Positions 59,460 through 63,509 of a DNA stretch of 64,000 bases are shown here, one piece after another; position 1 is the first letter of the stretch; every line of letters starts with the position of its first letter. A model generated the notes under the pieces. That model saw nothing but the letters and a program-made list of their open reading frames with translations. It was not told where the DNA came from and searched no databases. Made by a program: the position numbers and the translations under genes. Source of the stretch: Desulfovibrionales bacterium (GTDB lineage: Bacteria; Desulfobacterota; Desulfovibrionia; Desulfovibrionales; Desulfovibrionaceae); the NCBI GenBank assembly GCA_030156255.1, contig JASGMV010000012.1, positions 1 through 64,000 of the forward strand, in the 5' to 3' direction.

Positions 59460-60167
59460 ATGCTTCCATCCGTTCGAATCAAGTTGATCGCGAGCCTGCG
59501 GGGGGTCATTCTTATCCCGCGGGTCGCCATCTATTGCATCGTGGTCGCCAACGTGAAGCAGCTGTCGCTCGGCTCCTACCAGGAGGCGGCCGACACCGAA
59601 ATCCATCTGGTGAAAAGCGCCTTGTCGCTCTTCCTGGAAAACGTCCAGGAAAACGTCAAAGCCTTGAGCCTTCTTCCCGCAGCATCGCTGGAGGTGGTCC
59701 GAAATTCGGCGCAGGCTTCGCAGACGGCCAGCGAAGCGAAAGGCAAGGCCCAAGAAGGCAAGGCCATCGTGCTCAAGACCATCGGGGCCATGCGCGCCAC
59801 CAAGGAAGTCGGCGAATCCATCCGCTCCATTCAGGAAGTGGCCCAGAACAACATTTCCTCCATGGACAGAGCCGTCATCGATCTGGACAACGTCGTGGCC
59901 CTGTCCAACGAATCCGGACAAGTGCTTGAGGAAATCGTGCGCGCCGTGGAGTTCTCCTCGGACCAAATCCAAAGCATCGCAACCGCCGCGGAGGAGCAAT
60001 CCGCCGCCACCGAGGAGATCACCCGCTCCGTGGACGAGATCAACCGCATCGCGACGGACACCTCCCAGGGCGTGGGCCAAACCGTGACCTCGCTCGAAGA
60101 AATGACGGGGCAAATCTTTGAATTGAAAAAGCTGGTCCAGGAGTTGGAGGAAACGAAACCCGCTTAG
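59460..60167 (+). CDS. Truncated methyl-accepting chemotaxis protein (lacks sensor and hairpin tip)
   Basis: A 235-residue protein that begins like a chemoreceptor: membrane helix about 10-30 followed by the first part of a Cache-like periplasmic domain (YQEAADTEIHLVKSALSLF). At about residue 76 it joins straight to the N-terminal arm of a signalling domain, and at about 111 (MRATKEVGESIRSIQEVAQ) to the C-terminal arm. The periplasmic core, the second membrane helix, HAMP and the conserved hairpin tip that binds CheA/CheW are all missing. Reading frame is open throughout; ribosome site AAGGAGCAGAACA. It is either a decayed receptor with two in-frame deletions or an unusual decoy. Confidence 0.7.
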   Translation: MLPSVRIKLIASLRGVILIPRVAIYCIVVANVKQLSLGSYQEAADTEIHLVKSALSLFLENVQENVKALSLLPAASLEVVRNSAQASQTASEAKGKAQEGKAIVLKTIGAMRATKEVGESIRSIQEVAQNNISSMDRAVIDLDNVVALSNESGQVLEEIVRAVEFSSDQIQSIATAAEEQSAATEEITRSVDEINRIATDTSQGVGQTVTSLEEMTGQIFELKKLVQELEETKPA

Positions 60168-60712
60168 GGCAGGCTGGATTTTTCAAAGGCAGCCTGCTCT
60201 GCAAGGAGCTACGGGCAACTCCGCGCCGCGAAACGCTTGAATGGACGCCTTGGCTCCTTTCGCAGCGGCCAAGCCGAGCGGACAGGCCGTTCAAAACGGC
60301 CGCGGATGCGCGACGCAAGAAAGCAACCACGTCGGCGCGCAGGTCGGATGCGCGCGGATGCTTTTTTTCAACAATCCGAGGCGGGCGAAAAGCAGCCCGC
60401 CTCTTTTTTCTCGTCCGGCGCCGCCGCCAGCGGCGCCTTTGTCGCCCCCCGGCGATTGACGCGTTTTTAAAACCATCTATGCTCCTCCGGTATTGCAACG
60501 TTCGGTGGACCGTTGCAATGGACTTTCGTTACTCCCGGCGTTTTCTCCATGAAGACAAAAGAGCGCATTTCCGCTTGAAAAGCCGATCCGGACCATTGCG
60601 TGAACATTATAGGATATTTTTCACGAACATCTGGCAATCGCCCTGAAAATACGTTATTATTATTAGAAAGTCCGATCATAAAAATGCGCCGGCAACCTCC
60701 CAAGGAGACCTC
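60168..60712. other. Long gap with a terminator
   Basis: 545 bases without a supported ORF. A hairpin GCAGGCTG/CAGCCTGC follows the receptor stop, and a strong plus-strand terminator lies at 60378-60409. The right part (60560-60712) is AT-richer and probably carries the promoter of the following chemotaxis-like operon. Confidence 0.5.
60378..60409 (+). terminator. Intrinsic terminator
   Basis: GAGGCGGGC (60378-60386), an eight-base loop, GCCCGCCTC (60395-60403), then six T residues. It lies 210 bases beyond the receptor stop. Confidence 0.88.
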
Positions 60713-61105
60713 ATGCGAGCGCTCGTGGTTGAAGACGAGTTTTTGAGTAGAAAAGTTCTGAAAAGCTTTCTCGCCCCCTTCTTCGACGTGGATGTCGTGG
60801 TCAACGGCGTTGAGGCCGTGGAGGCGTTTCGGCTGGCGCTGGCCGACCATCATCCCTACGAACTCGTGCTCATGGATATCATGATGCCGGAAATGAACGG
60901 AATCGAGGCCTTGAAGGCCATCCGGGGCATCGAGCAGGAAAGAGGGCTCCAGCCCGCCCACTGCCTGATGATCACCGCTTTGAGCGACCCGAAAACCGTG
61001 ATCACCTCCTTCCACGAGGGAGGGGCCTCCGGCTATCTGGTGAAGCCGGTGGACAAACGCAAGCTGTACAGCGAACTCGAAAAACTCGAACTGATCAGTC
61101 GTTGA
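60713..61105 (+). CDS. CheY-like receiver of the split CheA module
   Basis: A 130-residue single-domain receiver: Glu7-Asp8 acidic pair, phosphoacceptor Asp55 in LMDIMMPEMNG, Thr/Ser in MITALSD and lysine in LVKPVDK. Ribosome site CAAGGAGACCTC. Its stop lies eight bases before the start of the HPt-STAS gene, so they form one operon. It is the natural phosphate acceptor from that HPt protein. Confidence 0.93.
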   Translation: MRALVVEDEFLSRKVLKSFLAPFFDVDVVVNGVEAVEAFRLALADHHPYELVLMDIMMPEMNGIEALKAIRGIEQERGLQPAHCLMITALSDPKTVITSFHEGGASGYLVKPVDKRKLYSELEKLELISR

Positions 61106-61113
61106 GGACCGCC

Positions 61114-61857
61114 ATGGCTGAAAACGCCGACGCCCTGGCCAGTGAATTCATGGGGGAAGTGAACGACAAATACTATCCCCAGGTCATGGAAGGCCTCGAC
61201 CTCATGGAGGGAGGCGACCTCTCCCAGGGTCTGGAAATCATCGCCCGCCCCCTGCACACCATCAAGGGCGTGAGCGGGTTCATGAGCGGGTTCGAAGACG
61301 CCTCGACGTTCACGCACAACGTCGAAAGTTTTCTGAAAAAACTTCAATCGGGAGATATGGAGGCGACCCCCTCCATGGTGGGACTGGCCATCGAGGCGGT
61401 GAACACCGTCTTCGGCGTCCTGGAGGCTCTGTACCAGGGCCAGGGGTTTGGCGACACGGACGCCGAAGAAATCCTGGCGCGGATCAACGAAGCCAAAGGC
61501 GAACGCGAGCGTCCGTCCGACCAAACGGAAGACGAGGTGAGCCTGGAGATGGTCGGGGATCGGATCGTCGTGCGCCCGGGAGCGCGCCGCCTGCATCTCA
61601 GCGGACAACGGAAGAAACTCATGGAGACCTTGCGGGCTCTCCCGGAAGGCTCCAACGTCCTGGTGGATTTGAGCGCCGTGGAAAGCATCGGAACCTCCAC
61701 GTTGGAGGAAGTGGAGTCTCTGAGCCACGTCCTGCACATCCGGCTTGCGGGCCTGAGCCCGGCCTGCAAGGAAATCGTGTTCGGCTGGCGGTTCGACCGA
61801 CGGCTGGCCGTCGATGGCGGCTCAGCCGACGCCGGCGCGGAGGACTCCCAAACATGA
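61114..61857 (+). CDS. HPt-STAS protein
   Basis: A 247-residue protein. The N-terminal 110 residues are an HPt domain with the phosphorylatable His48 in RPLHTIKGVSGFM. After a charged linker, residues about 145-240 look like a STAS domain (VSLEMVGDRIVVRP ... VLVDLSAVESIGTSTLEEVE), the fold of anti-sigma factor antagonists. The next gene encodes a CheA core without an HPt, so His48 is probably its trans substrate. The ATG at 61114 follows GAGGACCGCC; the stop overlaps the CheA-like start (ATGA). Confidence 0.85.
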   Translation: MAENADALASEFMGEVNDKYYPQVMEGLDLMEGGDLSQGLEIIARPLHTIKGVSGFMSGFEDASTFTHNVESFLKKLQSGDMEATPSMVGLAIEAVNTVFGVLEALYQGQGFGDTDAEEILARINEAKGERERPSDQTEDEVSLEMVGDRIVVRPGARRLHLSGQRKKLMETLRALPEGSNVLVDLSAVESIGTSTLEEVESLSHVLHIRLAGLSPACKEIVFGWRFDRRLAVDGGSADAGAEDSQT

Positions 61858-63509
61858 GGGATAGCGTCAACCAGTGCATCGAACAGCTCGAAACGCTGGT
61901 CATGGAGCTGGAGGCCTCCCCGTCGCCCGAGGGCGTCCGAAAGGTCTTGAGCGCCCTGGCGTTGTCGAAGGTGCGGCTGCCCTCGGCCCAGGTCATGGCT
62001 CTGTTCGACCTGCTGGAGGACGGCATCACGCCGGTGGACGCCAATCTGGTCACCGCCCTGCTCATGATCTGCGAGTCGTACAAACGCCTGTTGTACTGCA
62101 TGGCCGGGGTCGTCGAACGGCCGCTTCCCGAAATCAAGGCGGAAGTTCAGGCCGCCCGAGAGGCGGAAGCGGCGAAGATCGCCGTTGAACCGCCCGTCGC
62201 CCCCCAGGAGGAGGCCCGGGCCGAAGCCGGTCCGGAAGCCGAAAAAATCGAGCCCGATGCGGCGGGCGACGGAGGGAACGGCAAAAGCGCGGCGCCCCCC
62301 GTTCCTGCGCAGGGAGGCGGCGGCATATCCGCCATCCGCGTGGCGACGCAAAAACTGGATCATCTCATCGAACTGGTGGGCCGGCTCATGGTCACCTACG
62401 CCGTGGTCACCTCCCAGCAGAAGAGCAACGGCGGTCAGATGGCCGGGCTCAAGGAGCTGGACGTCGTCATCGACCAGCTTCGGGGAGAGGTCGAAGCCAT
62501 CCGCCTGGTGCCGCTCAAACAGATCCTCGCGCCCATGCACCGGCTGGTGAAGTCCCTGACCCAGAAGATGGGCAAGAAAATCAAGTTCGAGGTGGTGGGC
62601 GACGACCTCGAATTGGACAAGAAAATCGTGGAGTCCCTGAACGAGCCGCTGGTGCACCTGCTGCGCAACGCGGTCGACCACGGCGTCGAATCTCCGGAGG
62701 ATCGCCAAAGCCGCGGCAAACCGGAGACCGGTCACATCCTGCTCACGGCCGGCCGGCGCGGCGAGCACGCCTTTTTGCGCATCGAAGACGACGGCCGCGG
62801 CCTCGACGCGGAAAAAATCCGGGCCAAGGCCATGGAAAAAGGCCTGTGGGAAAACGGCCGAGAGTACACGGAAGAGGAAATCTACCATTTCATCTTCAAA
62901 TCAGGCTTCAGCACGGCCAAGGAGGTGACGGACGTTTCGGGGCGCGGCGTGGGCATGGACGCCGTGATCAACGCCATACGCGGAGAGCTGGAAGGCGAGA
63001 TCGACATCCAGTCCACCAAGGGAGCAGGCAGCGTTTTCACCATCAACATTCCACTGTCCCGGTCGGTGAACGAAGGCATCGTGGACGCCTTGGTCACGTT
63101 GATCGACGGTGAAATTTTCCTGGCTCCCAGCCGTGAGGTTCTGGAGGTCTTCCAGCTCAAACCGCAAGAAATCGTCCACCTGACGGACGGCGGGGAAGCC
63201 GTTTCCGTCCGCGGCGAGATGCTTGCGCTCATCCGCCTGGGAGACTATCTGGGTCTGGCCGGGAGCAAAGAAGAGCGGAACGCCGAACAGCACGCCATCG
63301 TCGTCAAAGCCGGAGAACGCAAGGCCGCTCTGCTGGTGGACGATGTGCTCCGGCAGCAACAGGCCGTCGTGACCAACTTCACCGTTCCCTTGCAGAATAT
63401 CTACAAAATCCCTATTCTCGGCTTCGGCATGATGGGCGAGTCCGACGCGCTGGTCCTCAATATGGAGACGCTGCTGGAGCAACTCGGCATCGACCAGCAC
63501 ACCGCCTGA
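61854..63509 (+). CDS. CheA-like histidine kinase without an internal HPt domain
   Basis: A 551-residue kinase. Residues 1-100 form a helical domain resembling a degenerate HPt, but there is no histidine before His170. A flexible Ala/Glu/Pro linker (about 100-155) is followed by the CheA dimerisation domain P3 (ISAIRVATQKLDHLIELVGRLM), the kinase P4 (LVHLLRNAVDHGVE, DDGRGLD, GRGVGMD) and a CheW-like P5 domain (about 395-545). It must phosphorylate a separate HPt, most likely the one encoded just upstream. The P5 domain suggests contact with a CheW or receptor. Confidence 0.93.
   Translation: MRDSVNQCIEQLETLVMELEASPSPEGVRKVLSALALSKVRLPSAQVMALFDLLEDGITPVDANLVTALLMICESYKRLLYCMAGVVERPLPEIKAEVQAAREAEAAKIAVEPPVAPQEEARAEAGPEAEKIEPDAAGDGGNGKSAAPPVPAQGGGGISAIRVATQKLDHLIELVGRLMVTYAVVTSQQKSNGGQMAGLKELDVVIDQLRGEVEAIRLVPLKQILAPMHRLVKSLTQKMGKKIKFEVVGDDLELDKKIVESLNEPLVHLLRNAVDHGVESPEDRQSRGKPETGHILLTAGRRGEHAFLRIEDDGRGLDAEKIRAKAMEKGLWENGREYTEEEIYHFIFKSGFSTAKEVTDVSGRGVGMDAVINAIRGELEGEIDIQSTKGAGSVFTINIPLSRSVNEGIVDALVTLIDGEIFLAPSREVLEVFQLKPQEIVHLTDGGEAVSVRGEMLALIRLGDYLGLAGSKEERNAEQHAIVVKAGERKAALLVDDVLRQQQAVVTNFTVPLQNIYKIPILGFGMMGESDALVLNMETLLEQLGIDQHTA

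Follow-up and report, generated by a model that had tools for sequence, protein, structure and literature searches.

In the analyzed stretch of DNA (the window, 64,000 nucleotides of a Desulfovibrionales contig), three co-directional genes are found at positions 60713-63509 of the forward strand in the order of CheY-like receiver, HPt-STAS protein and CheA core (Table 1). They are, as the first-pass annotation had described them, overlapping or nearly touching, and the start of the CheA gene overlaps the end of the HPt-STAS gene by ATGA. A second possible start of the HPt-STAS gene is the in-frame TTG at 61102; the ATG at 61114 is the likely start, and the residue numbers of the HPt domain (e.g., His48) are counted from it. 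The terminator-like hairpin sits between the operon and an upstream chemoreceptor remnant (59460-60167, forward strand), in which a short sensor-like start is followed by a partial MCPsignal match that covers only 84-171 of 172 and is under the Pfam cut-off. By its sequence, this remnant looks like an internally deleted chemoreceptor, and the relatives scanned for a counterpart have none at that position. The operon contains neither an intact MCP gene nor a CheW gene, and an intact MCP gene was seen next to the operon only in the relative locus L152.

Table 1. Positions of the genes, domains and candidate signals of the operon in the window
Feature	Position	Strand	Basis
Terminator-like hairpin	60378..60413	+	9-pair GC-rich stem, then T run
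Sigma-70-like promoter candidate	60631..60660	+	Just 5' of receiver gene; consensus scan only, 9/12
CheY-like single-domain receiver	60713..61105	+	Pfam Response_reg 1.9e-19
HPt-STAS protein, 247 aa	61114..61857	+	ATG start 61114; Pfam; AlphaFold2 mean pLDDT 91.7
HPt (CheA P1-type) domain, residues 2-131	61117..61506	+	VIA-align, profile search, conservation
STAS domain, residues 139-241	61528..61836	+	AlphaFold2 and VIA-align, Foldseek
HPt-less CheA, 551 aa: P3 dimerization, P4 ATPase, P5 CheW-like	61854..63509	+	Pfam, phmmer
CheA N-terminal four-helix domain without histidine	61854..62123	+	AlphaFold2 pLDDT 86.7 (residues 1-100)

The receiver contains the full set of E7/D8, D55, T88 and K111, together with a CheY-like Tyr108. 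E7, D8 and the phosphoacceptor Asp55 (codon 60875-60877) are invariant among 49 distinct orthologues. The operon thus includes a receiver, as the earlier reading had it. In the CheA core, Pfam identified CheW (2.1e-15), HATPase_c (1.3e-14) and H-kinase_dim (6e-4), while phmmer matched residues 159-538 to the CheA structures 8c5v (8.4e-68) and 6s1k (2.4e-67). The N, G1 and G2 boxes of P4 are invariant in 11 sequences, and the P3, P4 and CheW-like P5 parts are all present. The first histidine of the protein is residue 170, so the core is, as previously proposed, complete in P3-P4-P5 and devoid of a P1 phosphoacceptor of its own. This lack sets it apart from a complete CheA and makes it a bipartite variant.

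The domain search proposed in the first-pass annotation gave firm Pfam assignments for the receiver and CheA and sub-threshold ones for the middle protein, i.e., Hpt (E 5.3e-5, 23.8 bits, just below the cut-off of 24.6) and STAS_2 (E 0.071). An AlphaFold2 model built from 30 sequences of the window and public contigs is confident and has five helices within residues 2-130, followed by a b-b-a-b-a-b-a succession from residue 142. With VIA-align, the HPt part matched the P1 domain of Salmonella typhimurium CheA (1i5n) with a Z of 16.1 over 125 residues, and a profile search matched CheA P1 structures, including 2ld6, at 1e-9. Given these folds and the profile matches, the sub-threshold Pfam calls are solid. 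The putative phosphoacceptor His48 (codon 61255-61257), which had been recognized before, is accompanied by K51, H68 and E71, and the four residues are invariant in 53 of 53 distinct HPt-STAS orthologues. From the profile alignments we take them to be the counterparts of His48, Lys51, His67 and Glu70 in the P1 active site of Escherichia coli CheA. The middle protein thus combines the five-helix fold and the His/Lys/His/Glu set of a P1-type HPt.

STAS domains are normally used in sigma-factor control. The first reading had placed such a fold at residues 145-240, and it was found at residues 139-241: the STAS part superimposed on Bacillus subtilis RsbV from the RsbV/RsbW complex (6m36_B) with a Z of 13.6 and an rmsd of 1.8 over 94 residues (VIA-align), Foldseek ranked SpoIIAA of the SpoIIAB complex (1tid) first, and a profile search matched STAS proteins at 0.016-0.075 across the whole domain. 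Taken together, the P1 and STAS folds, the profile matches and the invariant H48, K51, H68 and E71 show that the middle protein joins an HPt of the CheA P1 type to a genuine STAS domain. Thr194 (61693-61695) opens the second STAS helix and was aligned by eye with the phosphoserine position of SpoIIAA. At this position, 47 of the 52 readable orthologues have Ser and three have Thr; a Ser or Thr is lost in L151 and L152, which belong to one genus. The Asp-Ser motif of SpoIIAA is only half kept, as the Asp is mostly replaced by Gly and otherwise by Asn, Ser or Ala in the same 52 sequences. The Ser/Thr may be a helix cap.

The N-terminus of the CheA core is not simply missing, as residues 1-85 were predicted by AlphaFold2 to fold as a four-helix bundle. 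Its best VIA-align match was the P1 domain of Thermotoga maritima CheA (1tqg) with a Z of 7.5, which is low for a helical bundle. No hhalign match was found between this N-terminus and the HPt-STAS family, and its profile found no CheA among the PDB sequences. A degenerate P1 was consequently rejected on sequence grounds, and the likeness is one of fold only, at a Z below the level that can be trusted for helical bundles. Histidines are absent from the N-termini of the window protein and several relatives and occur at non-conserved places in others, and the HxxKG motif is absent from the N-terminus of every CheA orthologue examined. A hidden phosphoacceptor histidine, the finding that would have overturned the initial reading of this protein, is therefore unlikely.

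In a whole-genome search, HPt-STAS was identified in 83 of the 348 genomes of the order and in 13 of its 59 genera; Salidesulfovibrio brasiliensis and Pseudodesulfovibrio pelocollis are named isolates among the carriers. In a sample of 395 genomes from the phylum, full-length HPt-STAS matches were confined to the family, and the other matches were P1-type stretches inside longer proteins, in many cases CheAs. In a tblastn search of plasmids, the HPt part alone was matched, and incompletely, by sequences that mostly carry a CheA or CheW annotation. The search for the same gene order in other sulfate reducers, suggested at the outset, showed the order of receiver, HPt-STAS and CheA in nearly every locus of the family inspected, in more than 40 loci besides the window, with gaps of a few bases or overlaps between the three genes in most relatives. 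The operon is often flanked by a TrmH-like gene upstream and a CbiK gene downstream, and the pair of HPt-STAS and HPt-less CheA is retained even where the third gene changes. The recurrence of this gene order, together with the invariant H48, K51, H68 and E71, is far beyond chance. A quick tree unites the HPt-less CheAs in a single group (support 89), and L050 is a long branch in it.

Some loci depart from the common form. In genome G669 (L160:7391-8073), the HPt-STAS gene is split into two frames by either a natural break or a sequencing error, while the CheA and receiver genes are intact. In L152 (1002-12110) and in L151 of the same genus, the operon is preceded by a very large hybrid histidine kinase that contains periplasmic-binding-like repeats; in L152 a further receiver gene is also found 5' of the operon and a chemoreceptor gene 3' of it.

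An HPt-less CheA and an HPt encoded by separate genes of one operon constitute a bipartite CheA, an arrangement that has been documented previously (Berry, Andrianova and Zhulin 2023, PMC10782961). As HPt was present in 98.3% of the CheAs in that survey, bipartite CheAs are rare. Given the P1 and STAS folds, the invariant sites and the conserved gene order, the system of the window is a conserved bipartite CheA and a variant of this rare but known arrangement. It differs from the surveyed ones in that the HPt is fused to STAS, a term with 0 occurrences in the survey text (PMC10782961), and in that CheA keeps a four-helix N-terminal domain. CheA3/CheA4 of Rhodobacter sphaeroides (PMC10782961) likewise place the kinase core and P1 on separate cooperating proteins; CheA3 has a P5 domain and a long kinase region that is degenerate, and it lacks STAS, whereas the 247-residue HPt-STAS protein lacks P5.

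Three further known systems come close to the operon. In Shewanella oneidensis, the Che1 chemosensory operon is associated with the partner switch CrsR/CrsA, which consists of a regulator with an anti-sigma domain and a STAS antagonist; there the antagonist is a separate, CrsR-controlled protein, whereas here HPt and STAS are in one protein and CheA is split (PMC9855816). In the HptB-HsbR-HsbA system of Pseudomonas aeruginosa, an HPt relay leads into a receiver-PP2C-kinase protein and an anti-sigma factor antagonist, but HPt and antagonist are separate and the upstream kinases are hybrid kinases rather than CheA (PMC6482189). CheS of Sinorhizobium meliloti is a STAS protein without HPt fusion that binds CheA and alters CheA's handling of CheY, and is similar in that a STAS domain acts on the CheA/CheY relay (PMC12654446). 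Searches of open-licence papers turned up no HPt-STAS fusion.

Genes for partner switching were found next to HPt-STAS in divergent relatives. In L048, from another family of the order, genes for an HD-GYP protein, a SpoIIE phosphatase and an RsbW-like-STAS fusion precede those for HPt-STAS and CheA; in L050, the RsbW-like-STAS gene again precedes HPt-STAS and CheA, and a receiver-SpoIIE gene lies divergently behind them. In Pfam, the RsbW-like parts of the two fusions matched HATPase_c_2 (1e-13 in one, 1.8e-12 in the other), and the phosphatase of L048 matched SpoIIE (3e-37); the HD-GYP name in L048 and the phosphatase of L050 were assigned by reading the sequence and by resemblance to L048. 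The STAS part of the L050 fusion is below Pfam detection and was recognized by alignment with that of L048. In hhalign, 50 columns of the window-type STAS profile aligned with the STAS part of the two fusions (E 4.8e-5, probability 68%), a partial match of middling probability. The HD-GYP, SpoIIE phosphatase and RsbW-like-STAS genes of L141 (8308-11608) are ~80% identical to those of L048, and no HPt-STAS gene was found adjoining them.

A second architecture was identified in six loci of the order (L142, L143, L144, L147, L148, and L149), in which genes for a receiver-SpoIIE protein and an RsbW-like protein are followed by one for an HPt-linker-STAS protein of ~370 residues. The RsbW-like genes are STAS-fused where scanned, and a full CheA gene is directly behind HPt-linker-STAS in three of the six (L142, L143, and L147). 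To the eye the middle linker looks P2-like. The STAS domain of HPt-linker-STAS seems to be without a phosphorylatable serine, whereas the RsbW-STAS of these loci has a DS motif. Together with L048 and L050, these loci make HPt and STAS beside partner-switch genes a recurring theme in the order. No RsbW-like or SpoIIE gene was found in the operon of the window or in any ordinary-type neighborhood scanned for them. The link between CheA-type signaling and partner switching that was drawn in the first-pass annotation is therefore supported in part, by the gene neighborhoods of L048 and L050, where RsbW-like-STAS and SpoIIE-type genes lie next to HPt-STAS and CheA; the window's own neighborhood has no such genes. 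RsbW-like genes are present elsewhere in the window's genome, on contigs C91 and C102. On contig 102 (L051), STAS, RsbW-like and receiver-SpoIIE genes stand in a row at the contig end (C102:110-1949), and the contig also holds a full CheA; it is possible that this RsbW-like cassette supplies a trans partner for the STAS of the window.

The best explanation for these observations, and in our judgement a probable one, is a bipartite CheA relay with the HPt-STAS protein as its hub. The CheA core (P3-P4-P5) would dimerize, couple through P5 to chemoreceptors/CheW and phosphorylate His48 of the separate HPt-STAS protein in trans, from which the phosphate would move to Asp55 of the receiver encoded in the operon. 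By binding a protein partner, the STAS domain would turn the HPt protein into the hub. Judging from the divergent relatives, the likelier class of partner would be an RsbW/SpoIIAB-like GHKL protein, and the kinase activity of the array would thereby reach a second, partner-switching branch in addition to the receiver. We consider a GHKL partner-switch branch plausible, at slightly less than even confidence. A fuller form, in which one protein carries two phosphorylation switches, the histidine being controlled by the chemoreceptor-regulated CheA and the STAS Ser/Thr by an RsbW-like kinase, so that the array would directly set an anti-sigma-type partner switch while driving the CheY-like receiver, appears rather unlikely.

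Alternatively, the STAS domain may do no more than dock the HPt to either the CheA core or the receiver; there would be no partner switch, and the receiver would carry the output, possibly as far as the flagellar motor. The CheS precedent (PMC12654446) makes pure docking a serious rival, to which we give substantial though clearly minority weight. Genus after genus, the ordinary operon consists of receiver, HPt-STAS and CheA alone, without RsbW/SpoIIE genes; consistent with docking are also the loss of the Asp of the Asp-Ser motif, the dispensability of the Ser/Thr in one genus (L151 and L152) and the CheY-like Tyr108 retained by the receiver. Docking alone is opposed by the RsbW-like-STAS and SpoIIE genes that directly adjoin HPt-STAS in the divergent relatives and in the second architecture, and by the Ser/Thr kept in 50 of the 52 readable orthologues. 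Flagellin was found in all system-carrying genomes of the relatives sample, but this co-occurrence says little, because nearly every genome of that sample has flagellin (54 of 59). The initial suggestion of an output other than the flagellar motor is thus neither backed nor contradicted by the receiver residues and the flagellin data.

It is improbable that the three proteins work apart, the CheA core using another P1/HPt and HPt-STAS serving other kinases: the genome does offer alternatives, with 29 HPt places in it and several further proteins of CheA type, but the strict gene order, the overlaps or few-base gaps in most relatives and the retention of the HPt-STAS/HPt-less CheA pair when the third gene changes all argue against it. 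That the locus is a degenerate CheA that lost P1 and is on its way out, as the chemoreceptor remnant just upstream and the broken HPt-STAS frame of G669 might suggest, is very remote and largely refuted, because catalytic residues are invariant over many genera, frames are intact and microsynteny is long-term.

In the published examples considered here, a partner switch under chemosensory or HPt control always works through separate proteins. As a fusion conserved in dozens of species, HPt-STAS provides a compact case in which a possible wiring between a phosphorelay and a partner switch, and the reason for splitting a kinase in favor of such wiring, can be tested directly. In these bacteria, one HPt-STAS protein may link chemoreceptor signaling to another switch of the cell.
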